This document shows positions 1,133 through 31,976 of a stretch of 42,806 bases of DNA, one piece after another. The first letter of the stretch is position 1. The number at the start of each line of letters is the position of its first letter. Source of the DNA: a virus; the IMG/VR virus record IMGVR_UViG_3300028831_000036, positions 1 to 42,806 of that record; one strand, written 5' to 3'. A program made the position numbers and the translations under genes. The notes under the pieces were generated by a model. That model searched no databases. It was not told the DNA's origin and saw nothing but the letters and a program-made list of their open reading frames with translations.

Positions 1133-1456
1133 CTAGTGGAGTGCAAACCGATCCACCTTTGCTAACACATAGGGTAACTTATCGTACACCTGTTTGTTGG
1201 TAAATCTGATCACCCTGACTCCACTTTGAATCAGGTCGCACGTCCTTGGCTCATCCTTCTCAAAGGTGTGACCGTTGCCATCCACTTCTATGACTAGGCG
1301 TGCCGAAGCAACATAAAAGTCAACGATGTATTTGTGCAGCATCGGGTGTTGTCTGCGAACCTTGTATCCTCTACGCCTTGCGCGGAACTCTTGCCAGAGT
1401 ATGTGCTCGGCTGGGGTAGGGTGTTTTCGCATTCTGATGGCTTTGAGGTTTACCAT
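1133..1456 (-). CDS. DUF559 / Vsr-like endonuclease
   Basis: 107 residues that fit the whole DUF559 family (PD-(D/E)XK nuclease fold, related to Vsr). They run from RMRKHPTPAEHILWQEFRAR through RRQHP and YIVDFYVASARLVIEVDG to the C-terminal VIRFTNKQVYDKL. The Asp of VDFY and the Glu and Asp of EVDG are the expected metal ligands. Such genes are often free-standing nicking or homing-type nucleases. TATCAT lies six bases before the ATG, so the gene is probably leaderless. It diverges from the plus-strand genes to its right. Confidence 0.85.
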   Translation of the reverse strand: MVNLKAIRMRKHPTPAEHILWQEFRARRRGYKVRRQHPMLHKYIVDFYVASARLVIEVDGNGHTFEKDEPRTCDLIQSGVRVIRFTNKQVYDKLPYVLAKVDRFALH

Positions 1457-2204: not shown

Positions 2205-2819
2205 ATGCGTGGAGATAGTGCAGTCAGGCATTCCGGCTCCGGCAACGTACCGCTGCTGGTTTCCCCGCCCGTGCCCGCATCACGAGCCGCCCGCCGTAAC
2301 CGCCCAGATTGTCCCTGGCGTGAGTTTGCCGCCGACAAGCACGTCTGCGACTATTGTGGCGGGAGGCTACCTAAGTACCATCGCAACTGGTGTGACCTCG
2401 AATGTGCTCTCTCCTATGCTTACAACCATCAGTGGGTCTTAGCCAAGCAGTGTGTATGGCAACGTGAGAGCGGAGCGTGCTGCCATTGTGGCCAGTTCGT
2501 CTTGCGCGGTGTGTCTGACTTTTGGCACCCAGAGTGGCCGCAGTTTGAGCGCGATCCAGGTGTGTGGGGACGCGGAGATGCCATCAAGGCGTTCTACGAC
2601 GCACATAGCATGGCTCTAGGCGAAGTTGACCACATAGTGCCGTGTGGCGGCAACTATAACAGCGGGTGCCACAACCACACCGACAATCTGCGATTGCTGT
2701 GCAGAGGGTGCCACCGCAGTCGTGATCAGTGGTCACTAGATTCTATCGTAATGCCGCTGGTGATTCCTGGACATCCTGCCGCAGCATGGTCGTATCGGTT
2801 GCCGCAATCCAGTCTCTAA
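2205..2819 (+). CDS. HNH endonuclease with zinc ribbons
   Basis: 204 residues. The C-terminal part holds the HNH signature: GEVDHIVPCGGN, then DNLRLLCRGCHRSRD, where DH, N and H form the metal-binding catalytic centre and the CxxC/CH pair braces the fold. Two further Cys pairs upstream (CDYCGG, CDLEC, and CCHCGQ near residue 97) form one or two zinc ribbons. HNH proteins next to terminase genes assist DNA packaging in many cos-type phages, and this one lies 80 bases before a probable small terminase. Alternatively it is a homing endonuclease. Confidence 0.85.
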   Translation: MRGDSAVRHSGSGNVPLLVSPPVPASRAARRNRPDCPWREFAADKHVCDYCGGRLPKYHRNWCDLECALSYAYNHQWVLAKQCVWQRESGACCHCGQFVLRGVSDFWHPEWPQFERDPGVWGRGDAIKAFYDAHSMALGEVDHIVPCGGNYNSGCHNHTDNLRLLCRGCHRSRDQWSLDSIVMPLVIPGHPAAAWSYRLPQSSL

Positions 2820-4744: not shown

Positions 4745-4762
4745 TGGTGCTCCTTCCGGTAG

Positions 4763-6539: not shown

Positions 6540-6812
6540 CTATGTGGTGATGCGAACCAGAGTGTTGCCTCGACCGCCTGAGGTGTCGGCTTTCAGTGTG
6601 CCTGACTTGATTCGGTTTCTCACCGTTGTCGCAGACACGCCCAGGATGTCGGCAGCCTCGTTCACAGTCACCCAGCGAGTGACTGGCTCAGCCAGAGGTC
6701 TGGCACTGCGCTTGGTAGCCTTGCGAGCCTTGGCGGCGCGAGCCTTGTTCTTGCGTGAGCCAGCAGCCGCCCCCATCGTGGCTACGAATGTAGCCGGGAA
6801 CGCGCTATTCAT
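6540..6812 (-). CDS. helix-turn-helix DNA-binding protein
   Basis: 90 residues. The N-terminal 40 are Ala/Lys/Arg-rich and probably disordered. The C-terminal half is an excisionase/MerR-type HTH: WVTVNEAADILGVSATTVRN followed by the wing-like RIKSGTLKADTSGGRGNTLVRI. It overlaps the previous HTH gene by eight bases and is transcribed with it. Two HTH proteins in one operon may co-regulate or form a heterodimer. It could be an excisionase, but no integrase is visible. Confidence 0.8.
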   Translation of the reverse strand: MNSAFPATFVATMGAAAGSRKNKARAAKARKATKRSARPLAEPVTRWVTVNEAADILGVSATTVRNRIKSGTLKADTSGGRGNTLVRITT

Positions 6813-7566
6813 CAGAACCGCCCTGCGAAGCCAGCAGTGCGTTGATGCTGTCCTCGGACACGAGCCGCTTGCGCCCGACCATCGTGCAGGACAGTCGCCC
6901 GTCGTTGCACATGTTGCGGATGGTGGAGGTGGACACGCTCAGCCGCGTAGCGGCCACCTCAGTGGGCACAAGCGAAGGCGTGTCGTCGGAGGCAGCCTGC
7001 TCGTCGGTCATCTCATCCGGCAGACCGTCCGCAGCCTCGTCCTCAAGGTCGTCGATCTCGTCCTGTGAGTATGACTCGCCCATGATTCCAGCAAACGCCT
7101 CGTCGATCTCGTCCTGGCGAGCAGCGAGAGTGGCAGAGGTGAGCAGGTCATTGGGGTACACACCCATGACGCCACCAGCACGAACCGCCTTGCGGAACGG
7201 GATGGGCCGAAGTGTGTAAAACAGAGAACACGCCCAGGCTTGCGCATCGCGCTTGTTCGGAAACTCGACATCGACGGCACCCGTGTACTGCAAGTGCTGA
7301 CGGAACGAGTTGAACAGACTGACCACGCTGTACTTCGTGATCACGATGGTGTTGGGCGCGACCAGGCCGTTGACTTCGACCTCAGGTGCGACAGCTAGTG
7401 TCGGCGTCGGCACTCCGTATGCCGCGCTCGCTTCGTTGAGGAAGCGCTCGAACTTGGACTGCTTCTCCTCATCGGAGCCAACCCAGGGCTTGGCGACAAA
7501 CAGGCGCTCACCGGCAGCCTTCGCACCCTTGTGAATGTTGCGGAACCTCAAGTGCAAACGAGCCAT
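6805..7566 (-). CDS. DNA-binding protein with C-terminal excisionase-type HTH
   Basis: 253 residues. I chose the ATG at 7566 because it follows CCGGAAGGAGAACAAC. The N-terminal 150 residues form a basic, globular domain I cannot name. An acidic linker (about 165-195, e.g. DEIDDLEDEAADGLPDEMTD) follows. The last 55 residues are an HTH_17-like domain (PTEVAATRLSVSTSTIRNMC...GRKRLV). It is a candidate regulator for the palindromic sites spread over this region. Its own promoter carries one such site. Confidence 0.75.
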   Translation of the reverse strand: MARLHLRFRNIHKGAKAAGERLFVAKPWVGSDEEKQSKFERFLNEASAAYGVPTPTLAVAPEVEVNGLVAPNTIVITKYSVVSLFNSFRQHLQYTGAVDVEFPNKRDAQAWACSLFYTLRPIPFRKAVRAGGVMGVYPNDLLTSATLAARQDEIDEAFAGIMGESYSQDEIDDLEDEAADGLPDEMTDEQAASDDTPSLVPTEVAATRLSVSTSTIRNMCNDGRLSCTMVGRKRLVSEDSINALLASQGGSDE

Positions 7567-7608
7567 GTTGTTCTCCTTCCGGTAGTGGTCGGTCAAGCCG
7601 ACATGAGA

Positions 7609-7666
7609 ATCATACGCATACTTGTCAACAGATGTCAAGTGATCTTGCGTTACTCACCTGAGGTGA
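7609..7666 (-). promoter_or_regulatory. promoter with TCACCTGAGGTGA site
   Basis: Minus strand: TTGACA (7638-7633), 18 bases, TATGAT (7614-7609). The perfect palindrome TCACCTGAGGTGA (7654-7666) is centred 22 bp upstream of the -35 box and overlaps the last codons of the upstream gene. If the HTH protein below binds it, this would be autoregulation (inference). Confidence 0.75.
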
Positions 7667-7997
7667 TGCGCTCGCGGTACTCGCTGACAACTACAGCATG
7701 TGCGGTGCGGCAGTCGTCGCACGTCTCAAGGCCAGCAGCCAACTCGGCCCGATACCCGGCTTCGGAGCCGTGCTGGATTCCGTCGTAGGCCGTAGGCAGC
7801 GACTCAAGAGGTCGAACGATCTGGCGTGCCACGCGTGCGGTCGCAACACCGCTGTTGGGGTCGGCCACGATGACGTGTACCTGTTGCCGTGAGATGCCAT
7901 ACCGCTTAGCAATGGCACCAGGCATCTCGCCACGGTTGTACCGCCGACGGATGTTGCGATTACGCCGTGCCACTTCCTCTGAACGTCCACTGGCCAT
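7650..7997 (-). CDS. helix-turn-helix protein with HG-x-AGY-CDDC motif
   Basis: 115 residues. An N-terminal HTH (RGEMPGAIAKRYGISRQQVH, about residues 22-41) is followed by HGSEAGYRAELAAGLETCDDC. This resembles a short motif common in small actinophage DNA-binding proteins (HGTxxGYxxHxxxGexPCxxC). The two Cys with the His may hold zinc. TACAAT lies five bases before the ATG, so it is probably leaderless. CCTAGGG-type sites lie upstream (8028-8051). A regulator is likely. Confidence 0.75.
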   Translation of the reverse strand: MASGRSEEVARRNRNIRRRYNRGEMPGAIAKRYGISRQQVHVIVADPNSGVATARVARQIVRPLESLPTAYDGIQHGSEAGYRAELAAGLETCDDCRTAHAVVVSEYRERITSGE

Positions 7998-8027
7998 GAC
8001 ACATTGTACGCTATCGTTGTCAAGACT

Positions 8028-8051
8028 CTAGGGTTGTACCCACCTAGGGTG
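8028..8051. promoter_or_regulatory. pair of CTAGGGT-type sites
   Basis: ACTCTAGGGT and CACCTAGGGTG lie in the short gap between the terminator at 8055 and the start of the HTH gene at 7997. They match the palindrome family found upstream of many promoters here and may let a regulator control this HTH gene. Confidence 0.5.
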
Positions 8052-8054
8052 TGT

Positions 8055-8068
8055 CCCGCCGAAGCGGG
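8055..8068 (-). terminator. UUCG-loop terminator of the amidoligase operon
   Basis: On the minus strand CCCGC-TTCG-GCGGG lies directly after the last stop codon of the operon. It is a short stable tetraloop hairpin of the same design as those at 12741, 17192 and 17666. Confidence 0.65.
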
Positions 8069-8069
8069 C

Positions 8070-8279
8070 CTAGTGGCGGTCGTCCTCTTTGTTGGCATCC
8101 GTGATATAGCCACGAGCGATCTTGGCTGTTTCGATCTGTGCCTTCCACTTGGCGATGTCAGCGTCGATCAGCGTCAGCGCGTTGCGGCGTACGTCCTTGC
8201 CGCCCTTGAGAGCGCCGATGACCACAGTTGACCACCGACCAGTCTCTTCCATGATCTGCATGGTCTCGGTGCGGCTCAA
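8070..8279 (-). CDS. hypothetical helical protein
   Basis: 69 residues from a TTG one base after the previous stop; later ATG codons are also in frame. The sequence (MSRTETMQIMEETGRWSTVV...) is helical and charged. It is the last gene of the amidoligase operon, so its role may be tied to that pathway or to the small membrane protein before it. Product not recognised. Confidence 0.6.
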   Translation of the reverse strand: MSRTETMQIMEETGRWSTVVIGALKGGKDVRRNALTLIDADIAKWKAQIETAKIARGYITDANKEDDRH

Positions 8280-8280
8280 C

Positions 8281-8418
8281 TCACGGGGCAAGCAAAACCA
8301 CCACCCCGATGACCAGCAGAGCACAGCCGACGAACGCGAGTGTCACCGCGATGACATCCATCCACGACTCATCTTCCTGCTCATGCAGCAGTTCCCCTTG
8401 CTTGTCCCACTGGATCAC
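8281..8418 (-). CDS. 45-residue membrane protein
   Basis: GTG start overlapping the stop of the glutamine amidotransferase gene (GTGA), with ribosome site GGAGG six bases before it. The first 19 residues are charged and soluble. Residues 20-45 form one membrane helix (MDVIAVTLAFVGCALLVIGV...). It could tether the amidoligase/amidotransferase complex to the membrane (inference from operon position). Confidence 0.7.
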   Translation of the reverse strand: MIQWDKQGELLHEQEDESWMDVIAVTLAFVGCALLVIGVVVLLAP

Positions 8419-9575
8419 TGCAAACCTCCGTCCCGTTCCATGACGGCGAGGTACTGCTCTATCTGCTCTTGCTCTTGTGCTTCGAGCGTGGAGCGGTAGT
8501 CAGCCTCGGCGTCTATCTCTGCCATATGCTCACGACGTGCCATCTCCTGATCAACCTGCCAGGTGATGTATTCCTCAATCGTCATCACTCGTCCGCTAGC
8601 AGCGCGATACCAGCCAGCGCCGAGATAGGTGCCGCCCCACTTGTCCACCAGACCAGGCGCAGTGCCCTTGAGCGGGTCAAGGGACGTTCCGCCACTCGCC
8701 GGAGGCTCAACTAGACCGCGCACCGTTCCTCGTCCGTCCTTGCCGCCTCTGGGCGATACGCGACGGCGTGGCTTGGTGCGTCCACGGTCGAAGTAGTCCG
8801 TGATGCCACTGAACGGGATGCCACCGCGTTCTGCCGCTGCGGGAGTGCGCGCCGGAATGGTAGTGCGGTGCGTTGTGTCTGCCTTGTACTGCTCACGTGC
8901 GGTGATCTTGCCACCACGCACAGTCAGGTGACGGTACTTCGAGCCTTCCATGGTCTGGAAGCCAGACAACTTCCAACCCAGTGCATCCAGCACCTTGCGC
9001 TCGGAAGCGAACACCATCGAGCCGTTCGGCGTGAACGCGTAGATCAGTGGACGGCCATATGACCGTGCGATGTGCAGCAGTTGCGGGTGCTTCGTTTCGG
9101 TGAACACTGACACCATGTTGCCCTTGATCTTGGCTAGGCCATCCTTGATGCCCCACTTGTTCACGGCTGCAAAGATCGCCTCGGAGTCCACCAGCGCTGT
9201 GTCGTCCTCACGTCCTGTTTCGTCCAGAATCGGCTGCCAGTCATTCAGCACGCCGTTGTGGACACCAACCACCCCACCATGCATCAGCGGGTGATTGTTC
9301 ACGTTGTCCTCGGGATCGCCATTTGTAGCCCAGCGGACATGGCCGACGAACCACTGGCACTCGTCGTCAACCTGCACATCTTGTAGGTGCTCGGTGACCT
9401 TGCCAGGTGCCTTCTCGACAGTGATGCCCGTGGCGTCGTTAAACGACATCCAACCAAACGCGTGCGGGCCTCGATGCACGATGGCCGCAAACATCAGTTG
9501 CGATGCGTCAGTCGGTCCCCACTCCTCACCCGCTGGACCAAGCGGGCCATAACTCACTCCGAAGATGCCGCAGAT
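8415..9575 (-). CDS. class II glutamine amidotransferase, non-AUG (ATC) start
   Basis: 386 residues with an N-terminal class II glutamine amidotransferase domain: catalytic Cys2 in CGIFG, HRGPHAFGW (34-42), HVRWATNGD (79-87), NNHPL (93-97) and HNGVLND (106-112). It releases ammonia from glutamine for a partner enzyme. The family's Cys nucleophile must follow the initiator, and the codon there is ATC with GGAAAGGAAG well placed upstream; a GTG at 9557 would lose the Cys. The C-terminal third is a charged coiled coil. The amidoligase two genes upstream is the likely ammonia user. Confidence 0.85.
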   Translation of the reverse strand: MCGIFGVSYGPLGPAGEEWGPTDASQLMFAAIVHRGPHAFGWMSFNDATGITVEKAPGKVTEHLQDVQVDDECQWFVGHVRWATNGDPEDNVNNHPLMHGGVVGVHNGVLNDWQPILDETGREDDTALVDSEAIFAAVNKWGIKDGLAKIKGNMVSVFTETKHPQLLHIARSYGRPLIYAFTPNGSMVFASERKVLDALGWKLSGFQTMEGSKYRHLTVRGGKITAREQYKADTTHRTTIPARTPAAAERGGIPFSGITDYFDRGRTKPRRRVSPRGGKDGRGTVRGLVEPPASGGTSLDPLKGTAPGLVDKWGGTYLGAGWYRAASGRVMTIEEYITWQVDQEMARREHMAEIDAEADYRSTLEAQEQEQIEQYLAVMERDGGLQ

Positions 9576-9718
9576 GATGTCACTTCCTTTCCGGTAGATG
9601 TTACGGTGCTGCGCTTATCACATGAGGTGGTGTGTTGACCCCACCTCGGACACTGCACACAGCACCAGTGATGACTGCCATAGGCCGGATTGGCTACCCG
9701 CCCACAGTCACACGTCAT
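9554..9718 (-). CDS. small zinc protein
   Basis: 54 residues, MTCDCGRVANPAYGSHHWCC then VQC and a later Cys: two or more Cys/His pairs, likely one zinc site. The ATG overlaps the amidoligase stop (ATGA), and its 3' end overlaps the start of the amidotransferase by 22 bases. This links translation of the three genes. Possibly a small adaptor within the amidoligase system; no known function. Confidence 0.7.
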   Translation of the reverse strand: MTCDCGRVANPAYGSHHWCCVQCPRWGQHTTSCDKRSTVTSTGKEVTSSAASSE

Positions 9719-10608
9719 GCTCCACATGCCGCTCTCGTTTGCGGACGTGAGTCCTTCCAAATCTTGGTCAACCGCTCCATGTCCTCCAAGGCCATTCCAC
9801 CGTCGTAACGCAGGACTTGCAGAAAGCGGTGACGTGCGTTGGCCTCGTTGGTGGTGCCATCAGCCATACCGCCGAGTGCGTACCGGCGGTTGATCGAGCG
9901 AGTCCGACCGTTGCGCGCGTCCTGCACCATTGCCATGCACATGCCGATGTAGCCTTGCACGCGCTCGGGGTTCAGCGACGAGTTGAACACGCGAAACTCG
10001 ATGGTCTGCCGGTAGAACCAGGAGTGCAGGTTGATGCCGCAGTAACGCGCGTGGTCATGGTGCGATTGCCCACGCTGCATGCCGTGTCCACGATTCGTGC
10101 CGTAGTAGGCATCCGCGACCTGCTCAAGTGTCTTGGCCTTGGCGATCTTCTGTGCGACAGCGTACTCAAGCGGTCGGCAGTACCGTGAACCACCACTGCG
10201 CATCCGCTCCCAACCTGAGGTTGCTACACGGTAGATGCAGTCCTCGAACTTCGTGAAGATGCGCGCCACAGCGGCAACCTGCTTGGCGTCCATGCCAGAG
10301 CCGTCGATGTGAACGTGGATACCTGCTGACTCGTCCGTGACAGCGCCAGCGCTCTTGAGCACTGCGATAGCCTTGGTGACCTGCTCGCGGTGCTCGGGAT
10401 TGTCGATGTCCAGCACAGGCGACACGCACTCGCCACCAGCCACAGAGCCATCGGTCTTGATCGTCCACAGGCCACCGCTGGCGTTACGGTTGTACGGGTA
10501 GATGCGACCGTCTCCAAGCCCAGCGGCTGCAAACGCGTCGGCAACACCCTGGAGATTGAAGCCGGGAGCAAGCCCGTGTTCAATCTCAATGCCGAATTTC
10601 CGTGCCAT
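9715..10608 (-). CDS. amidoligase (COOH-NH2 ligase fold)
   Basis: 297 residues matching the amidoligase_2 family, related to glutamine synthetase and gamma-glutamylcysteine ligase. Motifs in order: GIEIEHG (6-12), KTDGS...GGECVSP (51-64), GIHVHID (96-102) and IEFRVFNSSLN (203-213). These hold the metal and ATP ligands. Such enzymes use ATP to form amide or peptide bonds on small molecules or peptides. It leads an operon with a glutamine amidotransferase and diverges from a cyclotransferase-like gene, a combination predicted from comparative genomics to modify peptides. Extended ribosome site and own promoter are present. Confidence 0.85.
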   Translation of the reverse strand: MARKFGIEIEHGLAPGFNLQGVADAFAAAGLGDGRIYPYNRNASGGLWTIKTDGSVAGGECVSPVLDIDNPEHREQVTKAIAVLKSAGAVTDESAGIHVHIDGSGMDAKQVAAVARIFTKFEDCIYRVATSGWERMRSGGSRYCRPLEYAVAQKIAKAKTLEQVADAYYGTNRGHGMQRGQSHHDHARYCGINLHSWFYRQTIEFRVFNSSLNPERVQGYIGMCMAMVQDARNGRTRSINRRYALGGMADGTTNEANARHRFLQVLRYDGGMALEDMERLTKIWKDSRPQTRAACGA

Positions 10609-10645
10609 GTGTCGTCCTTCCGGTAGTCAGAACGGGTATGTGGAT

Positions 10646-10703
10646 ATCTTGCCCATCGTTCGGACTGATGTCAATGAGAATCACACAACTTCACCTGAGG
10701 TCA
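10646..10703 (-). promoter_or_regulatory. promoter of the amidoligase operon
   Basis: Minus strand: TTGACA (10674-10669), 17 bases, CAAGAT (10651-10646). The site TCACCTGAGGTCA (10691-10703) is centred 23 bp upstream of the -35 box. It shares the spacer with the divergent promoter at 10739. Confidence 0.75.
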
Positions 10704-10723
10704 TTTTACGCAACTGCGTATTA

Positions 10724-10768
10724 ACCCTAGGGCAGCACTTGACATGACAACATCTGCTGACGTATGAT
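10724..10768 (+). promoter_or_regulatory. promoter of the divergent cyclotransferase unit
   Basis: TTGACA (10739-10744), 18 bases, TATGAT (10763-10768). ACCCTAGGGC is centred 10.5 bp upstream of the -35 box. About 105 bases of leader follow before the extended ribosome site CTACCGGGAGG. Confidence 0.75.
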
Positions 10769-10883
10769 GCTGGTGTCGGGTTGGCTGCTATGACCATCTC
10801 TGTCACTTTCGACGGCAATCGCTAGTGCGAGACGCATTGGCCAGCGGTCAGTCCGACACACCTACTACTACCGGGAGGCTACA

Positions 10884-11075
10884 TTGGCACGGACACCGAA
10901 GCCGAAGGACTTTCGTGAGCGCCCCAAGCGCATGACTGCATCGCGGTCTGTCGCATGGCCCGACGACATGTTGACTCCGTGGGAGCGAGCCAAGAAACAG
11001 CGGTTGCTGCGCCGTGAGGCTGACCCTGCGGTCGCCAAGCGAGTGCTTGACCGTGAGCAGTCAACCCGTGGCTGA
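10884..11075 (+). CDS. small basic protein
   Basis: 63 residues from a TTG start with ACTACCGGGAGG in good position. Highly basic (MARTPKPKDFRERPKRMT...), with a conserved-looking WPDDMLTPWERAKKQ patch. It is the first gene of the unit and overlaps the cyclotransferase-like gene by eight bases. It may bind nucleic acid or act with the next gene. Not recognised. Confidence 0.7.
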   Translation: MARTPKPKDFRERPKRMTASRSVAWPDDMLTPWERAKKQRLLRREADPAVAKRVLDREQSTRG

Positions 11076-11475
11076 ACGGTACATGTTTGTGTATGGAACG
11101 CTCATGCACAAGAGCCATTGTTGCGGTTGGGGGCATGAGGCAGAGATTGCACCTGCACAAGATGCCACTGTTCCCGGTACGCTACTTGACTACGGCCCAT
11201 TCCCGTACGCTGACTTTGATGGCCCTGGGGTCATACATGGCCAAGTGCTGACCGTTGATGACGACACGGTGGAGTTTCACTACATCTGTCGCGTCGAACG
11301 TGGTGCTGGCTACGTCGCGCGTGAGGTTGAGGCTACACTGTGGGATGGCAGCAAGGTCACATGTCTCGGCTGGCATGTGCGGCACGAATGGATGCGCGGC
11401 CTACCTGTGATCGAATCAGGCGACTGGAATGCGCACGAGATGCTCAGATATGGCGCGGAGGCATCTCTCACATAG
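11068..11475 (+). CDS. gamma-glutamylcyclotransferase-like (AIG2/BtrG fold) protein
   Basis: 135 residues from GTG (VAERYMFVYGTLMHKS). FVYGTLM near the N-terminus, then VPGTLLDYGPFPYADFDG, VIHGQVLTVDD and YVAREVEATLWDG, follow the GGCT/AIG2 pattern. These enzymes cleave gamma-glutamyl amides by cyclisation, releasing 5-oxoproline; BtrG removes a gamma-glutamyl group in butirosin synthesis. The first catalytic element YGTL is present; I could not place the acidic catalytic Glu with certainty. Its gene diverges from the amidoligase operon, so a shared pathway is likely. Confidence 0.75.
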   Translation: MAERYMFVYGTLMHKSHCCGWGHEAEIAPAQDATVPGTLLDYGPFPYADFDGPGVIHGQVLTVDDDTVEFHYICRVERGAGYVAREVEATLWDGSKVTCLGWHVRHEWMRGLPVIESGDWNAHEMLRYGAEASLT

Positions 11476-11476
11476 A

Positions 11477-11490
11477 AGTGCTTCGGCATT
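11477..11490 (+). terminator. weak UUCG hairpin after the cyclotransferase gene
   Basis: A five-pair stem, AGTGC-TTCG-GCATT with one G-T pair, starts two bases after the stop codon. It resembles the other UUCG hairpins at unit ends but is weaker. Confidence 0.4.
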
Positions 11491-11555
11491 CTACTTGCGC
11501 CACCCTCAACACCCTAGGCGTAGATGCAAGTTTCAACACACTAGGGGCATCTGGG

Positions 11556-11613
11556 TCACCTAAGGTTGAACTCCGCAGAATCGCTTGACATTGACACATC
11601 ACAGGTCGATGAT
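11556..11613 (+). promoter_or_regulatory. promoter with TCACCTAAGGTT site
   Basis: TTGACA (11585-11590), 17 bases, GATGAT (11608-11613). The imperfect palindrome TCACCTAAGGTTGA is centred 23 bp upstream of the -35 box. Two further related sites (ACCCTAGGCG near 11510, CACTAGGGG near 11540) lie upstream in the same gap. Confidence 0.7.
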
Positions 11614-11650
11614 TGTCACTGTCAACAGCGAACAGGAAGGAGAACGCCAG

Positions 11651-11875
11651 ATGCTGGTCTACGGCTACACCGACTACGATGGTGTGTTGCACATCTTCGC
11701 CACGTATGAGGAAGCGGTTAGTGAGTGGGCTGCTGATGGCAATGCCGGTGTTACTGCTTCGCCTAGTACAGACGGTATGCGGATCGAAGATCATCGGTCC
11801 ATGCCGATGCCTGTGCTTGGCTCTACGGCACCTGCTCCTGGATCGTTCGCACACTTTCAGTCTCTTGGACAGTGA
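11651..11875 (+). CDS. hypothetical protein
   Basis: 74 residues beginning MLVYGYTDYDGVLHIFATYE. The start is set by GGAAGGAGAACGCCAG. The N-terminus looks like a short alpha/beta fold and the C-terminus is Ser/Pro/Gly-rich and probably flexible. It is the first of six small genes in one unit (11651-12736), most of them with touching or overlapping ends. Function unknown. Confidence 0.7.
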   Translation: MLVYGYTDYDGVLHIFATYEEAVSEWAADGNAGVTASPSTDGMRIEDHRSMPMPVLGSTAPAPGSFAHFQSLGQ

Positions 11876-11885
11876 GGAGGTAACC

Positions 11886-12053
11886 ATGCCTGTTGGAGTG
11901 CTCAAGAATCGGGTGGCTCAGTGCCACACCTGTTCGGTAAAAGACGTGCCGGTGACGATCAACGGCAACCTGCGTAGGCACAAGAACGCACGCGGTTTCA
12001 TCTGCAAGGCCAGCAACACGCTCAAGCAGAATCGCACCAAGGTCAAGCGGTGA
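11886..12053 (+). CDS. small basic zinc-finger-like protein
   Basis: 55 residues with strong ribosome site GAGGAGGTAACC. CHTC near residue 14, a HK pair and a later Cys could bind one zinc; the C-terminus is basic (KQNRTKVKR). Overlap of four bases with the next gene (GTGA). Nucleic-acid binding is plausible. Not recognised. Confidence 0.65.
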   Translation: MPVGVLKNRVAQCHTCSVKDVPVTINGNLRRHKNARGFICKASNTLKQNRTKVKR

Positions 12054-12259
12054 GCCGCTACATTCTGTTCAGGGTCGATGACTCTGAGGAGAGGTCATCT
12101 ACTGATGCCGGAGGCGATCTGATCCACGGCCTACACATCCTAGCCACTGGCAAGGTGAACGGTGTTGTGGATGCAGAGGCCGATGGCATCGGTGCCACAT
12201 TTGTCAAGCGGTCAGCACCTCAGGTGTCTCTCGTGGCGTCCGGTATCTGGGACACGTGA
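12050..12259 (+). CDS. hypothetical protein
   Basis: 69 residues from a GTG that overlaps the previous stop. The sequence MSRYILFRVDDSEERSSTD... suggests a small beta-rich fold with acidic loops. It is translationally coupled to both neighbours (one-base overlap with the next ATG). Function unknown. Confidence 0.65.
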   Translation: MSRYILFRVDDSEERSSTDAGGDLIHGLHILATGKVNGVVDAEADGIGATFVKRSAPQVSLVASGIWDT

Positions 12260-12426
12260 TGCCTCAGGTGGTAGTAGTCATCGAACCAAACTCTGACTCT
12301 AACTTGGCAGCGTCACGAGAGGTGTACCTCTGTGATGACTGGAAGTGTGCGCTGGATGTGGTGCAGATGACCGCACAAGCGGACGATCCTGGCAAGGTGA
12401 TGATGTTTACCGTGACTCATGCCTAA
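12259..12426 (+). CDS. hypothetical protein
   Basis: 55 residues, MPQVVVVIEPNSDSNLAASR..., with a central CDDWKC. The two Cys five apart may matter but one pair alone does not define a zinc site. Its ATG shares a base with the previous TGA and its end overlaps the next gene by eight bases, so it sits in a tight unit. Function unknown. Confidence 0.6.
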   Translation: MPQVVVVIEPNSDSNLAASREVYLCDDWKCALDVVQMTAQADDPGKVMMFTVTHA

Positions 12427-12586
12427 GAAGGCCAAGCGGCATGATCAACGTGGGGTGTCGCTTGGCATCTGTCCGAAGTGCCTCAAGGACATGTGGAAGG
12501 GCGAGGGCACAGTAGTCACGCCCGTACGTCTCGATGGCAAACTCGTGGCGGTGCTGTCACACACATACTGCAAGGAGGTGATGTAG
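12419..12586 (+). CDS. small zinc-ribbon-like protein
   Basis: 55 residues. A basic N-terminus (MPKKAKRHDQRG) precedes CPKC (18-21) and a final HTYC, so a CxxC...HxxC zinc ribbon is likely. It lies inside the unit starting at 11651 with short overlaps. Probably nucleic-acid or protein binding. Function unknown. Confidence 0.6.
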   Translation: MPKKAKRHDQRGVSLGICPKCLKDMWKGEGTVVTPVRLDGKLVAVLSHTYCKEVM

Positions 12587-12736
12587 ATGGAGATTCGACT
12601 GACCCTGTCAGTAGATGACGACGAGATGGTAGATGCCGGTGACTCTACCGGACTGACCAACGAGGCTTTTGAGCAGTTGACAGATGCCTTGTCTAGCCTA
12701 GGCTACTCGTTCGTCAATGGCCCGACAGCCGTCTAG
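12587..12736 (+). CDS. small acidic protein
   Basis: 49 residues, MEIRLTLSVDDDEMVDAGDS..., acidic, with a beta strand then a helix (EAFEQLTDALSSLG). The ribosome site AAGGAGG is eight bases upstream, inside the previous gene's end. Last gene of the unit, followed by a UUCG hairpin. Function unknown. Confidence 0.6.
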   Translation: MEIRLTLSVDDDEMVDAGDSTGLTNEAFEQLTDALSSLGYSFVNGPTAV

Positions 12737-12740
12737 TTTG

Positions 12741-12752
12741 CCGCTTCGGCGG
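12741..12752 (+). terminator. UUCG-loop hairpin
   Basis: CCGC-TTCG-GCGG four bases after the stop codon, followed by a T-rich stretch some 15 bases further on. Same design as other unit ends in this genome. Confidence 0.5.
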
Positions 12753-12790
12753 TGCACATCCTAGTGTGATTTTAATTACCTAGGGTGATT

Positions 12791-13072
12791 GTGGCAGAAA
12801 TCCTTGACATGTTCGGCTACGGAATCCAGAATGTTCACATCGCTACTCAACCGAGTGGTGCTGAGTACGGACTACCGGAGGCAACCTTGTTCTCAGTACA
12901 GAACAGCACAGGCAGAGTGGAGTTAGAGCCAGTAGGCACTGACCCCGCAACCCTTACCGTGCGTGCATCTCGCAACATCCTGAACGATTCTTCGGACGTT
13001 CGGGTGGATGCTGATGAAGCGCTGGTACTCGCTGCGGCGCTGACCGCGTGGGCACATCGGCAGGGGTCATGA
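12791..13072 (+). CDS. hypothetical protein
   Basis: 93 residues from GTG with AGGG five bases upstream, inside the palindrome ACCTAGGGTGA. An earlier in-frame GTG at 12785 is possible. The sequence is a mix of strands and helices with an acidic surface. Its stop overlaps the next ATG (ATGA). No sigma70-like promoter of the main class is visible in the 48-base gap before it. Function unknown. Confidence 0.65.
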   Translation: MAEILDMFGYGIQNVHIATQPSGAEYGLPEATLFSVQNSTGRVELEPVGTDPATLTVRASRNILNDSSDVRVDADEALVLAAALTAWAHRQGS

Positions 13073-13712: not shown

Positions 13713-13751
13713 GTTCACATCACACCGACATCCACTACCGGGAGGTACGAC

Positions 13752-25966: not shown

Positions 25967-28306
25967 ATGACCGAGGCTGAGGTTTCACACCTACCGCAGC
26001 GAACAGACTCAGACGCACCGGGAACCGCCGAGCAATACCAGGCCGGTCATCCCGGTGCTGCGTTTGCCACCAAGGCTCCCGTTGGCTCTGCCATCCTTGG
26101 TCCAGCGGCCCAGGGCCAAGTGCCCGCGATCATCGACCGTGTCTTCCAGGCATACGCACCGCTGGCTTACCAACTGCCGTGGGTCACACTCGATTACATC
26201 GAGATGCTGGCTACCTACAATGCAGACTACAGCCAGGCCGTTGAGAATATTAAGACGCTTGCCAACTCAGGTCACAACGTCTTTGTGCGAGCAAGTTCAG
26301 ACTTGCAACAGCGTAAGGTTAGCGCGCTGATCGAGTCCAAGGCCAAGTCCATTCAGTCGCGAGACGGTGGCATCGACGGACTCATCGACAAGTTGCTTGA
26401 CCAGGCCGCAACGTTTGGTGCGATGTGCGGTGAGTGGTTGCTGTCCGAGGACTTGACCGAGGTCGTTGACTTCGCAGATATCAACCCCAAGTTCATCAGG
26501 TTCTTCTGGGACATCCAGCAACAGCGATACATGCCTTACCAGAAGGTTTCCAACATGCAGTTGTCGGAAGCCCGCAAGAACGGCCAGACCGTTCTCAATG
26601 GCTGTGTGCAGTTGAACGAGGCCACGTTCCACTACTTTGCATTTGATGCAGCGCCGGGGTCACCCTATGGCACGCCACCGTTTCTGGCAGCGCTCGAACC
26701 CATTGGCATCCAGCGCGACATGATCCAGAACATGAGTCAGATCGTTAAGAAGATCGGCCTGCTGGGTTTGGTTGACGTTGTTGTGAAGTCAATGCCACCC
26801 AAGCCGGGTGAGTCCGCTGAGGATTACATGACTCGCGCTACTGGCTATCTTGACAAGTACGCCGAGGCTGTCCAGAACATGGTGCGCGACGGTGGCCTCA
26901 TTCACTTCGATGATGTTGAGGTGAAACCAACTAGCCTTGCTGGCAACGCAGCCGGTGCCACTGCGATCTTCAAGCAGAACGAGGAACTAGTGTTCTCTGG
27001 CTTGAAGTCGATGCCGTCAGTACAGGGGCGTTCGTACTGTGTCGTGCCATCAACCAAGGTGTTAACCGCCGATCTTGAGTGGGTACCTGCTGGTCAGTTG
27101 CAACTCGGTGATGAGGTTATCGGGTTCGATGAGGATTTGGGCAAAGGCCGAGGGCGCGGTGCAACCACTCGCATGAAGCGCTCCACGGTCGAAGTCAACC
27201 GTCGCATCTGGCTTGACTGCGTGAAGGTTGTAACCGACAAGGGTGAGATCACCGTCAGCAAGCAACACCCGCTCGTGGCGCTCAGTCGTTCCGCCGGTCG
27301 TGTGTGGCGTGAGGCAGCGGACCTCAAGATCGGCGACACGCTCGCCTGGTTCGGTTCTTCTTGGGATGAGGATCGTTCGTATGACGCGGGTTACTTAGCG
27401 GGCGTTCTCGACGGTGAGGGCTGTGTCGGTCGTGCTGGTTCGGGCCAGAACGGACAGATCACAATGGGTCAAAAGCCTGGTGTGGTGCTGGACGAGACGG
27501 TTCTGGCCATGAAGCGTTGCGGATTTGATACTTATGTAGGCGAGCCAAACAGTGGCGACTACAAGAACGTGTCAACGCTTCGTGTCCTTGGCGGTCAGTA
27601 CATGACGATGCGCCTGCTAGGCAGCATTCGTCCACACCGCTTGTTGGCAAAGGCTCACCAGGTATGGGAAGGCGCGACGATGCGCCGAGGTGGTTCAACC
27701 AACAAGACTGCCAAGCAGGATGCTCACGCCACGGTAACGGCGATCATCGACATGGGTGAGTTGGAAGTTGTGGCATTGCAGACTTCGTCTCGCACGTTCA
27801 TTGCTGAGGGACTACTAAACCACAACTCAACCACCGAGACTTATGCAGGAGTTGCCTACGACATTATTATTCGCAACACCTTGTCATACCAGCGTGGCTG
27901 CAAGCGAATGATCGAGGCTGGCTATTGGCTGATGTGCACACTGGCAGGCTTGCAGCCAACCAGCATCGAGTTGCAGTTTGAGGAGAACAAGACTCTCAAC
28001 CGCTTGCAGCAGGCACAGGCGCATGCGATTGAGATTCGTAACTGCATTACCAAGTGGCTCATCGGTGTGATCAATCAGGTGGAAGCGGCACAGGAGTTGG
28101 GCTACACCGAGGTTGCTAAGCCGATGGCCGAGCCGCCACCTGAGGCTCTGGGTGAGAAGCCCACTGGTGGTCCGACTACAGGTGTTGACCCGCGTGCTGG
28201 CAGTGGTGATAACAGTTCGGGTGGCAATGGAAACACCAATGCGTCCGCTCGCCGTGACCCGTTCGGCGACCTGGATGATGACGAGGCGTACGAGGAGTTT
28301 GGATGA
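25967..28306 (+). CDS. portal protein interrupted by an intein
   Basis: 779 residues as translated; about 516 after splicing. The exteins are a portal of HK97-like phages: helical wing regions, PPFLAALEPIGIQRDMI, then GRSY joined to STTETYAGVAYDIII, and a Gly/Pro-rich, acidic C-terminus. The portal forms the dodecameric channel at one capsid vertex and docks the terminase. The intein (residues 358-620) splits the region just before the conserved STTETYAG. GAGGAGGGTCG is the ribosome site. Next gene overlaps by four bases. Confidence 0.92.
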   Translation: MTEAEVSHLPQRTDSDAPGTAEQYQAGHPGAAFATKAPVGSAILGPAAQGQVPAIIDRVFQAYAPLAYQLPWVTLDYIEMLATYNADYSQAVENIKTLANSGHNVFVRASSDLQQRKVSALIESKAKSIQSRDGGIDGLIDKLLDQAATFGAMCGEWLLSEDLTEVVDFADINPKFIRFFWDIQQQRYMPYQKVSNMQLSEARKNGQTVLNGCVQLNEATFHYFAFDAAPGSPYGTPPFLAALEPIGIQRDMIQNMSQIVKKIGLLGLVDVVVKSMPPKPGESAEDYMTRATGYLDKYAEAVQNMVRDGGLIHFDDVEVKPTSLAGNAAGATAIFKQNEELVFSGLKSMPSVQGRSYCVVPSTKVLTADLEWVPAGQLQLGDEVIGFDEDLGKGRGRGATTRMKRSTVEVNRRIWLDCVKVVTDKGEITVSKQHPLVALSRSAGRVWREAADLKIGDTLAWFGSSWDEDRSYDAGYLAGVLDGEGCVGRAGSGQNGQITMGQKPGVVLDETVLAMKRCGFDTYVGEPNSGDYKNVSTLRVLGGQYMTMRLLGSIRPHRLLAKAHQVWEGATMRRGGSTNKTAKQDAHATVTAIIDMGELEVVALQTSSRTFIAEGLLNHNSTTETYAGVAYDIIIRNTLSYQRGCKRMIEAGYWLMCTLAGLQPTSIELQFEENKTLNRLQQAQAHAIEIRNCITKWLIGVINQVEAAQELGYTEVAKPMAEPPPEALGEKPTGGPTTGVDPRAGSGDNSSGGNGNTNASARRDPFGDLDDDEAYEEFG
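27038..27826 (+). other. intein with LAGLIDADG endonuclease domain
   Basis: 263 residues. Block A starts at Cys1 (CVVPSTKVLTADLEWVPAGQ), block B is ITVSKQHPL, block F/G ends VVALQTSSRTFIAEGLL then NHN before the +1 Ser. These are the splicing residues Cys1, His of block B, terminal His-Asn and Ser+1. Between them GYLAGVLDGEGCV is a LAGLIDADG motif of a homing endonuclease; only one clear copy is seen. All splicing residues are intact, so it should be active. Confidence 0.93.
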
Positions 28307-28438: not shown

Positions 28439-30370
28439 ATGAGCGCAGCACTCAAGGACAAGTTTCGCAACTTGTCAGATGCCAACGCCCATGCCAAGGA
28501 AACCAAGGCGGGCGTAGACATTCGCAAGCGCATGACCACTCTCAAGGGTAGTGGTGATGGCGGCGGTGAAGGTGGAGGCGGTGAAGGCAGTGGCACAGGT
28601 GCAGTTGACACCTCTCCCATGCCGCCGACCGCAGAGCAGTTGGCTAAGATCAACCAGTTCACGCGGTCGGAGAAGACAGCGCAGGATGTTGTTGCGTTCA
28701 GCACCCTAGCGTGCAACGATCTGTACGACCGCGATGATGAGCGCTTCATGCCAGACACGGTCAGTGGCTTTGCTGACCTGGCGGGAGCGCTTTCGCCTGT
28801 TGGCAAGGCATACATGGTGTCGCATGACTACACCAAGTTGCCCATTGGTCGCATCTTCGATGTGGGCACAAAGGATATCTCTGTCCAGAACCCATCGGGC
28901 CACACGATGACCAAGACATCGCGGTTCCTTACTGCCGAGGTCTACATCCCCAACACCGATGCCAACAAGGCGTTCATCGAGAACCTTGACTTCGGCATCA
29001 ACTGGGCCGTATCGGTCGGGGTGATGCTGGAGTCTGCCAAGTGCTCACTTCCTTGGTGCGGCGCTCCGATGTACTCATCTCGCTTTTTCGGCTCGTGGTG
29101 TGCTGAGGGCCACGACAAGGGCCAGTACTACACCGCAGACGCCGAGGTCAACTCGTGGGGCGAGGCGATTCCTTGTCCCTCGACAACTGAAGGTGCGCAG
29201 AAGTGCCGCACTGACCTCGTGGGGGCCAAGGACTTCTACGAGTTGTCACAGTGCTTCCTCGGAGCACAGTACTTCGCGGCCCTCGATGGGCAGAAGGCAG
29301 TGTCGGCCCGCAATCTGATCAAGGCAGCGGGTGCTGCCAATGTCCCGGTCCTCGGCTTGTCACGTCAGGAGACGCATGAACTCCTGGATGACAGCATGAT
29401 GGACCCACGCGTTCGCCAAGCCGTTCGTCAGTTCGGTGCTGCACCGGATGATGACGGGCTTCTGACGTGGACCGACGATCAGAAGTTGGTTTGGCAGTTC
29501 GATCCAGAGTCCGGGGTAGTGTGCCTCGGCAGTTCCAGTGAAGGAGATGAAAGTGGCGAAGCAGCGGCGGAGCAGTCCGCAGAGGGCACACACGGTGCCT
29601 CTGACTCGGAGCACGAACAAGACGCCTCGCAGTCTTCAGCAGACGAACGTGTCGGAGAGAGTGCTGAAGACGGGCGGGCCGTCGGGTCCGGCTCCGATGA
29701 GGAAGGACCCAGGGAAGACGGGAGCGTAACTGCTGCGGCAGGAAGCCACTCGCATTCTCACCAGCATGCCGATGGGGTGATTCACAGTCACGCTCACTCG
29801 CATGGAAGTCCCAACGACTATGCGCACTCGTCGAGCGACTCTGTGAATCACACCCACGGCCACAACGACGACAAGGAGGCAACCGTGTCCAAGGCGGCTG
29901 TGGTCAAGGCGCTTCGTGGCCTTGGCAACGTTCCCGATGCGGTCTTGCGAGCAGTGGAGGACGCAGAGGGTGACGCATTGGATGCGGCTCTGTCCCCGCT
30001 GATCGGTAAGATCGTTGCTCAGGGTGATGAGATCACTGCTCTGAGCCCGAAGGCAGTCCTTGGTGACCAGTTCATCGAGGCAAAGCGCGCCGAAGCCATT
30101 TCTTGGTATGTGAAGGCAAACCAGGTCGATGGCAGGGGCGTGAACACCGACAACTTCCAGAAGTTGTTGGAGACGTGCGGTGACAACATCGCTCTGCTCG
30201 ACGAACTGATCAACAGCAACAAGTCCGTCGCGCAGGCTAAGTTCCCATCGGCAGTGCGTCGCAGTTCGTTCCCTACCGATCCGAATAACCCGCAGCGGGA
30301 GTCGGCGGATGAGGACGACGGTGATGACGTGGGTAGCGGGTCCAACACAGTGACTCGTATCCACGGCTGA
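28439..30370 (+). CDS. prohead protease-scaffold fusion
   Basis: 643 residues. A Gly-rich stretch (38-54) precedes a prohead serine protease-like domain: ACNDLYDRDDERF (91-103), YMVSHD with likely catalytic His129, and GINWAVSVGVM with likely Ser192. C202, C207, C221 and H225 may bind zinc, an unusual insertion. Residues about 395-480 are low-complexity, acidic, ending in a His-rich stretch (HSHSHQHADG, HSHAHSH, HTHGH). The last 160 residues are helical and probably act as scaffold. The protease matures the capsid and removes scaffold. Portal and capsid genes flank it. Confidence 0.8.
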   Translation: MSAALKDKFRNLSDANAHAKETKAGVDIRKRMTTLKGSGDGGGEGGGGEGSGTGAVDTSPMPPTAEQLAKINQFTRSEKTAQDVVAFSTLACNDLYDRDDERFMPDTVSGFADLAGALSPVGKAYMVSHDYTKLPIGRIFDVGTKDISVQNPSGHTMTKTSRFLTAEVYIPNTDANKAFIENLDFGINWAVSVGVMLESAKCSLPWCGAPMYSSRFFGSWCAEGHDKGQYYTADAEVNSWGEAIPCPSTTEGAQKCRTDLVGAKDFYELSQCFLGAQYFAALDGQKAVSARNLIKAAGAANVPVLGLSRQETHELLDDSMMDPRVRQAVRQFGAAPDDDGLLTWTDDQKLVWQFDPESGVVCLGSSSEGDESGEAAAEQSAEGTHGASDSEHEQDASQSSADERVGESAEDGRAVGSGSDEEGPREDGSVTAAAGSHSHSHQHADGVIHSHAHSHGSPNDYAHSSSDSVNHTHGHNDDKEATVSKAAVVKALRGLGNVPDAVLRAVEDAEGDALDAALSPLIGKIVAQGDEITALSPKAVLGDQFIEAKRAEAISWYVKANQVDGRGVNTDNFQKLLETCGDNIALLDELINSNKSVAQAKFPSAVRRSSFPTDPNNPQRESADEDDGDDVGSGSNTVTRIHG

Positions 30371-30407
30371 CCAACCGCAAGACAGTCAGATCAACCAAGG
30401 AGGAAGC

Positions 30408-30827
30408 ATGACCACTCAGGTTGCGGGAGGTCGCATCACCGGGCACCTTGCCCTCACGGTGATCGCCACTGCGGCATTGCAGGAGGGTGACCCGGTAATG
30501 CTCACGGGCGATTACCAGGTTGGCCTCTCGGACGGCACCAAGCCGTCCATCGGCTACGTGTCTGTGCGCAACGTCAAGCGCGTTGTCACAGATGTCTCGT
30601 CCACCTTCCCGGTGGGCAACCCAGGCGGTGACGTGACGGTTGAGGCTCGTGGCCTCAACGTTGGTTGCTTCGCCTCCAAGGGTGCCATCACCGCAGGGAA
30701 CTTCGTCAAGGTGGACGGCACGGGTGCATACGTTGATGGTGGTGTCGTCTGGGACGTTGCCAACGTCGGCATTGCGCTCACCTCAACCACGGCTGACGGG
30801 CAGTTGTTCGACTGCCTCACGATCTGA
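30408..30827 (+). CDS. capsid decoration protein (probable)
   Basis: 139 residues, beta-rich and Gly/Thr/Val-rich (GHLALTVIATAALQEGDPVM...FVKVDGTGAYVDGGVVWDVA). It has the size, composition and position (just before the major capsid gene) of small head decoration proteins, which coat the capsid surface. AAGGAGGAAGC is the ribosome site. The match is by pattern and context. Confidence 0.7.
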   Translation: MTTQVAGGRITGHLALTVIATAALQEGDPVMLTGDYQVGLSDGTKPSIGYVSVRNVKRVVTDVSSTFPVGNPGGDVTVEARGLNVGCFASKGAITAGNFVKVDGTGAYVDGGVVWDVANVGIALTSTTADGQLFDCLTI

Positions 30828-30845
30828 GGAAAGGGGCAGTCAGAC

Positions 30846-31976
30846 ATGGCTCGCAGCCTGAAGGAGAAGTTCTCCGGTGTCGCTGTCAACAAGGACTTCA
30901 ACACCGAGCAGTTCCACAAGGAGATGCAGCGTCTCCGCAACAACCGCAAGGAAGTCACTCTGAAGTCGGCGCTTTCCGAGGCGTACGGCGAGGACATGAC
31001 GCCCGAGCGGTTCTACCGCGACCTCGGCATCGACATGTCGGGTATGACCGTCGAGAAGATGCTCAACACTGGTGAGTTGACTCGCTGGCTGTTCCCGGAG
31101 TTGTTCAGAGATGCGATTCTTCGCGGTCTGACCTATACGCCGTTCTACGGCACCCTTGTCGCCGCTGAGGAGACCATCAACAGTACCGGCATCACGATGC
31201 CAGCGATGGACTTCACCAAGGTCGATCCCAATGAGTTGCGCCTGCGTGATCTGAACGAGGGCGCGACCATCACCGAGAGCCAGATCATCGCGTGGTCCGA
31301 GAAGCAGGTGACCATCAAGAAGAAGGCTCGCGGACTCCGGCAGACGTACGAGTCGATCATGTTCACTCCGATCGACCTCGCTGCGATCTACTTTGAAGAA
31401 CTTGGCACTCAGTTGGGTGCTGACCTCGATGCGGAGTTGGTGGACGTTGCTCTCAACGGTGACCAGGCAGATGGGTCCGCTGCGGCTCCTGTCATCGGCA
31501 TTACGACCGCGAACACGCTGACTTACGCCGACCTTGCAAGGGCGTGGATCAGGTTCCGCAAGATCGGTCGTAACTCTACGGTGATGCTGATGGCCGAGGA
31601 CGAGGCGCTGACGATCCTGGGTCTGCCAGAGTACCAGCGGACGTTCAACGCCATCGGTGCCATTCCGTTGGTGCAGGGCTTCCAGCCGCCCACGCTGAAC
31701 ATCGCCAACCCGCTGCCGACCTCGCAGGACATCCTCATCCACGACAGCATGGCAGAGGGCAAGATCGTCCTCATCGACGTGCAGAGGGCGTTCATTCAAC
31801 TGACGGCGATGCCGCTTCTCATCGAGAGCGACAAGATCGTGAGCCGTCAGTTGAACGGCGAGTACGTGTCCATCATCACCGGCTTTGCCAACATCTTCAA
31901 CGATGGCCGCATGGTGATCGACACGACCACCAACCTCACCACCAACCCAGGACCGGCTGTCCCGATCCGCTCCTAG
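30846..31976 (+). CDS. major capsid protein
   Basis: 376 residues, HK97-type. The N-terminal 80 residues are helical (delta-domain-like, ending near PERFYRDLGIDMSGMT). E-loop region and spine helix follow (NELRLRDLNEGATITESQII, then IYFEELGTQLGADLDAELVD). P-domain ends with REL-like LLIESDKIVSRQLNGEYVSI and ITGFANIFNDGRMV. Located after the protease and decoration genes as expected. Builds the icosahedral shell. Confidence 0.88.
   Translation: MARSLKEKFSGVAVNKDFNTEQFHKEMQRLRNNRKEVTLKSALSEAYGEDMTPERFYRDLGIDMSGMTVEKMLNTGELTRWLFPELFRDAILRGLTYTPFYGTLVAAEETINSTGITMPAMDFTKVDPNELRLRDLNEGATITESQIIAWSEKQVTIKKKARGLRQTYESIMFTPIDLAAIYFEELGTQLGADLDAELVDVALNGDQADGSAAAPVIGITTANTLTYADLARAWIRFRKIGRNSTVMLMAEDEALTILGLPEYQRTFNAIGAIPLVQGFQPPTLNIANPLPTSQDILIHDSMAEGKIVLIDVQRAFIQLTAMPLLIESDKIVSRQLNGEYVSIITGFANIFNDGRMVIDTTTNLTTNPGPAVPIRS

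Follow-up and report, generated by a model that had tools for sequence, protein, structure and literature searches.

What does a phage gain from carrying an amidoligase, a glutamine amidotransferase and a gamma-glutamyl cyclotransferase at one locus? The DNA analysed here, called the window, is a 42.8-kb fragment of an uncultured, soil-type tailed phage whose host is probably an actinobacterium. It encodes an Amidoligase_2 protein, a class II glutamine amidotransferase and an AIG2-type gamma-glutamyl cyclotransferase (GGCT), which together could transfer ammonia or glutamate to a host molecule. The first-pass annotation had named these three enzymes, and the assignments are borne out by matches to PF12224, PF13522 and PF06094, respectively. 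Family scores are far above chance, homologues are present in independent phages, and alignments with these homologues show that the family-invariant residues, including the catalytic ones, are kept in all three proteins. The observation itself is confirmed. A known anti-phage defence system was considered and rejected, as PADLOC gave no match to the three enzymes and only a weak mad1 match, on the HTH tail of a neighbouring gene product.

The amidoligase (9715-10608, minus strand, 297 aa) starts at an ATG preceded by CTACCGGAAGGA. It matches PF12224 with an E-value of 2.9e-35 and 122.8 bits (curated Pfam cut-off 22) and keeps all 16 invariant columns of an alignment of 36 sequences, its own included; among these residues are E8, E10, D53, S55, E60, H98, H100, E204 and R206. 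The AlphaFold (AF2) model has a pLDDT of 88.7 and a pTM of 0.90, and Foldseek matches it to YbdK-type structures (1.8e-6), Dop (4.6e-6), PafA (1.8e-4) and glutamine synthetase (GS, 1e-3). As modelled, the protein has a GS/GCS-like fold, and we infer an ATP-dependent amide-forming ligase of the GS-like carboxylate-amine type. Identity to YbdK, Dop-PafA and glutamine synthetase is 10-14%, a likeness of predicted fold for which we do not claim the same substrate. With Dop and PafA among the top matches, the amidoligase might instead make a peptide-type protein tag, as PafA does with Pup, or modify a nucleotide or base and not a wall precursor. We consider this unlikely, since the fold is common to many GS-like ligases and no Pup-like tag or base-modification gene is found in the scanned parts of this incomplete genome. 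Bacterial chromosomal relatives are distant (22-32%) and come from Bacillota, Verrucomicrobiota, Bacteroidota and other groups; no actinobacterial relative is found among these matches.

The amidotransferase (8415-9575, minus strand) consists of a class II, Ntn-type domain and a variable C-terminal part. It matches PF13522 at 2.5e-15 and GlmS-domain structures at 6.4e-10. Residues C1, R80, T83, N106, G107 and D129 are invariant among homologues, and the glutamine-site arginine R80, the oxyanion residues N106-G107 and D129 align with the GlmS domain. In the profile ranking, the glmS (2.5e-13), purF and asparagine synthase models stand above EgtC (5.1e-6). The family search recognised no PRPP, SIS or synthetase domain in the protein, and lacking a synthetase domain it is expected to work with a separate acceptor enzyme.

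The start of this gene is unusual. The catalytic cysteine aligns at position 1 and is encoded by TGC, and the codon before it, with which the ORF opens in the contig, is ATC. No ATG, GTG or TTG lies in frame before the cysteine in the contig; the first one lies six codons past it. ATC is a very weak start codon, and the nearest relative, whose amidotransferase is 43% identical, has ATG at this place. The start codon may thus have been lost, so that the amidotransferase would be made poorly or not at all and the module would be decaying or down-tuned in this contig. This is very unlikely in our judgement: the frame is unbroken across 385 codons with the catalytic residues kept, the gene is preceded by a CTACCGG leader, typical of the phage, that includes a Shine-Dalgarno-like stretch, and a one-base sequencing error is just as possible.

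The GGCT gene (about 11053-11475, plus strand) diverges from the amidoligase operon, as had been described. The control region between the two units (10609-10883) is flanked on both sides by CTACCGG leaders and contains CACCTGAGGT at 10692, CCCTAGGG at 10725 and a sigma-70-type site with an 11/12 match (10739-10768), the latter on the plus strand only. The plus-strand unit begins with a 63-aa basic ORF with a TTG start (10884-11075), with the leader CTACCGGGAGG 16 nt upstream. This ORF overlaps the start region of GGCT, for which GTG 11053, GTG 11068 and ATG 11083 are candidate starts. GGCT matches PF06094 at 1.3e-13 with 52 bits (cut-off 22.8) and the YtfP structure 1xhs at 6.1e-7. It keeps the YG(S/T)L anion loop as YGTL and the catalytic glutamate, which is the E in RVERGAGY (motif R-V/M-E-x-G-A-G-Y). 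Its location on the opposite strand behind a separate leader would fit an unrelated neighbour, serving for example thiol or gamma-glutamyl turnover, with the pathway reduced to the amidoligase-amidotransferase pair. Such an arrangement is quite improbable given the wider distribution of GGCT. Of 43 phage and prophage lineages, 25 have GGCT close to the amidoligase, almost always with both genes on one strand, often overlapping, and with GGCT usually directly downstream; no GGCT match occurs in 164 kb from elsewhere in three uncultured relatives. The amidotransferase lies near the amidoligase in 6 of the 43 lineages. GGCT is the amidoligase's usual partner and the amidotransferase an occasional one.

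The cassette recurs in other phages. All three uncultured relatives carry amidoligase-amidotransferase pairs, and two of them carry GGCT as well. Scans for close relatives with single proteins gave no matches; an alignment including Arthrobacter phages was required. The two genes adjoin each other in the window, in G001, G002 and G003 (twice in the last), in L114 and L158, in Arthrobacter phages and in podophages. Across the amidoligase tree these pairs occur in three separate places, so that a single inherited neighbourhood is unlikely. Fused amidoligase-amidotransferase or amidoligase-GGCT proteins, as proof of a shared pathway, were not found. The Arthrobacter phages Salgado, Laroye and LiSara (Laroyevirus) and Ottawa and Kharcho contain the same three families as the window in the order GGCT-amidoligase-amidotransferase (genes 97-98-99 in Salgado and 64-65-66 in Ottawa), with 25-33% identity to the window's proteins. 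In contrast to the window, their GGCT, deposited merely as 'hypothetical', lies on the same strand, and their amidoligase has an additional N-terminal region. In clostridial and Bacillus phages and prophages (for example Terrisporobacter phage TPDSL_ph1 and Bacillus phage 031MP002) the amidoligase is close to GGCT, as in the window, but the amidotransferase was not found.

The idea of such a cassette is itself not new. In RIO-1/LUZ24-like phages, amidotransferase, amidoligase, GGCT and further ligases have been published as a peptidoglycan modification cassette (PMC5498523, PMC11945000). Podophages resembling RIO-1, LUZ24, PaP3 and phiEco32 have a single cluster in their early region that unites Amidoligase_2 with a class II amidotransferase and GGCT (PMC5498523, PMC3890496, PMC11945000), and the window likewise co-clusters all three. 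The podophages with the larger version are phages of Pseudomonas and Pseudoalteromonas. Their cassette also has a COOH-NH2 ligase (PF14395) and an ATP-grasp enzyme, neither of which we recognised in the window or the three relatives. For ATP-grasp (RimK family) the controls worked, in genomes that are incomplete, and an HMM built from phage seeds was negative across the loci searched. For PF14395 there was no match while the search controls were also silent, and the loci searched gave nothing with the seed HMM. Iyer et al. 2009 is cited in the podophage cassette papers. In that literature we found neither an experiment on the effect of the cassette on peptidoglycan or superinfection nor a demonstrated substrate of the module. 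The window's cassette is a new branch of this gene set, whose predicted role in other phages is a change of the host cell wall.

Further ORFs surround the enzymes on the minus strand. The first-pass annotation had included three small peptides in the operon, and their ORFs are present. A 54-aa Cys/His-rich, Zn-type ORF (9554-9718) overlaps both adjoining genes, the amidoligase at its stop (ATGA) and the amidotransferase at its start, a 45-aa peptide with one hydrophobic stretch (one-TM, 8281-8418) overlaps the amidotransferase stop via GTGA, and an 84-aa helical ORF (8070-8324) matches no family above cut-off. None has a significant homologue in any relative fetched, and we reject them as conserved parts of the cassette. 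Overlooked in that annotation was a conserved 253-aa fourth gene of this phage lineage (6805-7566). It is present in four of four phages, the window and the three relatives, and lies near the cassette in the relatives. No homologue occurs elsewhere in the fetched loci or in the stretches fetched from the Arthrobacter phages. The window version has a C-terminal excisionase-type HTH (HTH_17, 1.1e-8). A zincin-like metallopeptidase, prompted by the order of helices and strands, is unsupported: the AF2 model is poor (pLDDT 61) and Foldseek gave nothing at E<1.

Our leading explanation, which we hold tentatively, is a small glutamine-dependent amide-ligation module that acts on a host peptide or wall precursor. 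Judging from its family and intact residues, the amidotransferase would use its N-terminal cysteine to hydrolyse glutamine and release ammonia. The amidoligase, going by its modelled fold, would use ATP to phosphorylate the carboxylate of a putative small-peptide or cell-wall-precursor substrate and would link it to a nucleophile, presumably ammonia or another amine. GGCT, as a member of its family, may strip gamma-glutamyl groups as 5-oxoproline and thereby clear or edit gamma-glutamyl products of the ligase. A host envelope precursor or peptide would be altered early in infection to the benefit of the phage, for instance by excluding other phages, as the literature on related cassettes leads us to hypothesise. 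The family matches, intact residues, amidoligase fold, recurrent amidoligase-amidotransferase adjacency and podophage literature support amidation; so does the want of a recognised synthetase domain in the amidotransferase. The more constant partnership of GGCT and the missing standard start of the amidotransferase in the contig speak against it, as does the fact that the cassette contains no peptidoglycan-specific gene.

The enzyme assignments and the recurrent co-occurrence hold, and neither of the outcomes that the first-pass annotation had named as fatal, lost catalytic residues or no conserved co-occurrence, was observed. The suggestion that the three enzymes form one coherent chemistry is supported in part. 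It fits GGCT less well, both in the partner counts and because GGCT requires a gamma-glutamyl group whose alpha-amine is free, and ammonia-dependent amidation makes no such group. Since L-Ala N-acylates the D-Glu of the stem peptide, intact peptidoglycan stems cannot serve as GGCT substrates. GGCT chemistry points to gamma-glutamyl products over primary amides. The main rival to amidation is a gamma-glutamyl masking cycle, which is possible but doubtful. The amidoligase would place glutamate, via its gamma-carboxyl, on an amine in a molecule of the host or the phage, and GGCT would remove the group as 5-oxoproline. The amidotransferase would be a gamma-glutamyl hydrolase and thus not an ammonia donor. 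EgtC is such a hydrolase in ergothioneine synthesis, where EgtA/EgtC form a precedent, and BtrG removes gamma-glutamyl as 5-oxoproline in butirosin synthesis. The closest amidoligase fold, YbdK, is carboxylate-amine/gamma-glutamylcysteine-ligase-like, GGCT is the main partner across phages, and the stand-alone amidotransferase also matches EgtC. Nevertheless, the glmS, purF and asparagine synthase models fit the amidotransferase better, and with two different enzymes for gamma-glutamyl removal, one would be redundant. A masking cycle with both uncapping enzymes, Ntn hydrolase and GGCT, in which the AUC start keeps amidotransferase output low, appears about as unlikely as a protein tag.

Whichever product is made, the module recurs alongside differing partners in phages whose hosts differ greatly, and this speaks for real selection. 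The window's lineage and the Arthrobacter phages represent the smallest amidotransferase-containing version, with three enzymes. The Arthrobacter phages are cultured, and the chemistry of the cassette is therefore directly testable. The partner counts, with GGCT common and the amidotransferase occasional, suggest gamma-glutamyl products as the first thing to seek.

The window spans the full 42,806 bases of an uncultured virus record, and in it an Amidoligase_2 gene (9715-10608, minus strand; PF12224, E 2.9e-35) neighbours a gene for a class II glutamine amidotransferase (8415-9575, minus strand; PF13522, 2.5e-15). Further minus-strand ORFs here encode a Cys/His-rich protein of 54 aa, a one-TM peptide and an 84-aa protein. 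A plus-strand 63-aa ORF and a GGCT/AIG2 (gamma-glutamyl cyclotransferase) gene (11053-11475; PF06094, 1.3e-13) run divergently from this set. For the stretch 7000-13000, no close DNA relative was found among GenBank phages.

All three enzymes appear intact. An alignment of 36 amidoligases, window included, has 16 invariant columns (F5, G6, E8, E10, W48, D53, S55, E60, V62, P64, G96, H98, H100, N193, E204 and R206). The AlphaFold model built from this alignment is confident (pLDDT 88.7, pTM 0.90). Compared with solved structures, it is most similar to YbdK, to Dop and PafA (both Pup enzymes) and to glutamine synthetases. This similarity supports a predicted glutamine synthetase (GS)-like ligase fold without recourse to the family name. 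In the amidotransferase, Cys1, Arg80, Thr83, Asn106-Gly107 and Asp129 are all present, and the protein can be aligned with the GlmS glutaminase domain; a family profile search recognised no acceptor or synthetase domain in its remainder. The GGCT is similar to YtfP and retains the YGTL loop and the catalytic Glu. No family-invariant residue is lost in the alignments. The cassette is real, and the first-pass annotation had both located its genes and assigned its enzymes correctly.

Class II amidotransferases begin Met-Cys. In the window, the codon ahead of the Cys is ATC, itself preceded by another ATC, and the frame has no ATG, GTG or TTG from the preceding stop codon up to the Cys. A relative (locus L011) has ATG-TGT here, and the window ATC is either the true codon or a sequencing error. 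A CTACCGG-(A)AGG leader precedes this site, as one also does at 10626 for the amidoligase and at 7585 for the neighbour gene. Since the leader is strongly over-represented in this phage (15 near-matches versus 1.9 expected, a number reached in 0 of 100 shuffles) and most CTACCGG sites (21 on both strands, about 3.4 expected) lie 15-19 nt ahead of an early-gene start codon, translation probably begins at the ATC site. Between 200 and 18500, CTACCGG-(A/G)AGG stands 15-19 nt 5' of many early-gene start codons, with minus-strand examples of the leader at 4762, 5899, 7585 and 10626 and plus-strand examples at 13735, 14588, 15389, 17016 and 17366. The leader is alike in kind to a start-associated sequence that has reportedly been described in cluster K mycobacteriophages. 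The palindrome CCTAGG occurs 32 times between 1855 and 18857 (5.2 expected; for example at 8043, 10726, 12779, 16363, 17748 and 17791), often as CACCCTAGGGTG-like sites in intervals separating early genes, and CCTGAGG/CCTCAGG is likewise enriched. A phage regulator may bind at such sites.

Three uncultured phages, G001 (74 kb), G002 (90 kb) and G003 (81 kb), have the terminase, portal and capsid module in common with the window. All three carry the amidoligase-amidotransferase pair, with amidoligase identities to the window of 56%, 45% and 45%, respectively. A GGCT lies at most 3.5 kb downstream in G002 and G003; because the G001 contig starts about 400 bases ahead of its amidoligase, an upstream GGCT may be missing from it. 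Homologues of the 253-aa protein encoded at 6805-7566 (minus strand) lie close to the cassette in all four phages and were found in no other fetched locus; in G003, the stop of this gene overlaps the GGCT start. The WhiB protein of G003 (7e-16) points to an actinobacterial host, and a WhiB-like PHROG match at the C-terminus of 7650-7997 hints more weakly at the same for the window. 10-mers like CTTTCGGAAA / TTTCGGATTC, repeated 15-25 times in G002 (L167-L171) and G003 (L172-L175), are perhaps the counterpart of the window leader or operator motifs. The window portal gene (25967-28306, plus strand) encodes 779 aa versus ~510 aa in the relatives, and it gives a weak LAGLIDADG_3 match and a match to an intein-containing model at residues 356-621; the protein likely carries an intein. 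Near the left end lie a DUF559 gene (1133-1456, minus strand; 1.4e-23) and a weak HNH match (2205-2819, plus strand).

The enzymes grouped by the first-pass annotation co-occur in cultured phages as well as in the relatives. In Arthrobacter phage Salgado, the amidoligase and amidotransferase are genes 98-99, and gene 97 (L002 6198-6650), deposited as hypothetical, belongs to the GGCT family (2.1e-18). Genes 64-66 of Arthrobacter phage Ottawa share this arrangement; gene 64 (L003 5204-5671), also deposited as hypothetical, encodes a GGCT-family protein. In PaP3, Lyrsu01 and RIO-1 the cluster is larger and also includes a COOH-NH2 ligase and an ATP-grasp enzyme.

Clustering 104 loci at 80% identity gave 43 amidoligase lineages. 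GGCT is found near the amidoligase in 25 of them, nearly always directly downstream on the same strand, and the amidotransferase in 6. Four of these six also have GGCT; contig ends truncate the remaining two. As a control, 164 kb taken from elsewhere in the genomes of the three relatives contained no GGCT, and the sole cassette item there was a second, diverged amidoligase-amidotransferase pair in G003 (L173 9546-11301; contig 29546-31301). In the amidoligase tree (224 columns, midpoint root, deep branches tentative), amidotransferase-bearing lineages occupy three separate positions; the closest neighbours of the window group (support 0.999) are GGCT-bearing lineages, mainly clostridial ones (0.85). 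The natural reading of these distributions is a ligase-GGCT core, with the amidotransferase gained or lost several times.

GS-like ligases use ATP to activate a carboxylate, which is then joined to an amine. Class II amidotransferases use Cys1 to hydrolyse glutamine or, as EgtC does, another gamma-glutamyl amide, and GGCTs convert a gamma-glutamyl group whose alpha-amine is free into cyclic 5-oxoproline. In the favoured model, amidoligase and amidotransferase would amidate a host peptide or wall precursor in a glutamine-dependent manner, with GGCT as editor. The GGCT partner statistics and the amidoligase match to YbdK favour the main rival, in which a gamma-glutamyl cap would be added and later removed. 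That GGCT simply degrades peptidoglycan is unlikely: in the stem peptide, L-Ala acylates the amine of D-Glu, which bars GGCT from acting on intact stem peptides.

Function has already been proposed for related phages. The larger cluster was named a peptidoglycan modification cassette, with superinfection exclusion (PMC5498523) or lysis-aiding wall changes (PMC11945000) as suggested roles, and it is present, whole or in part, in UFV-P2 (PMC3890496) and OM43 phages (PMC10580990). We found no experimental test of its function in these papers. New here are the window lineage and its conserved fourth gene, the leader motif, the lack of a standard start codon in the window amidotransferase, the recognition of Arthrobacter genes 97 and 64 as GGCT, and the partner statistics.
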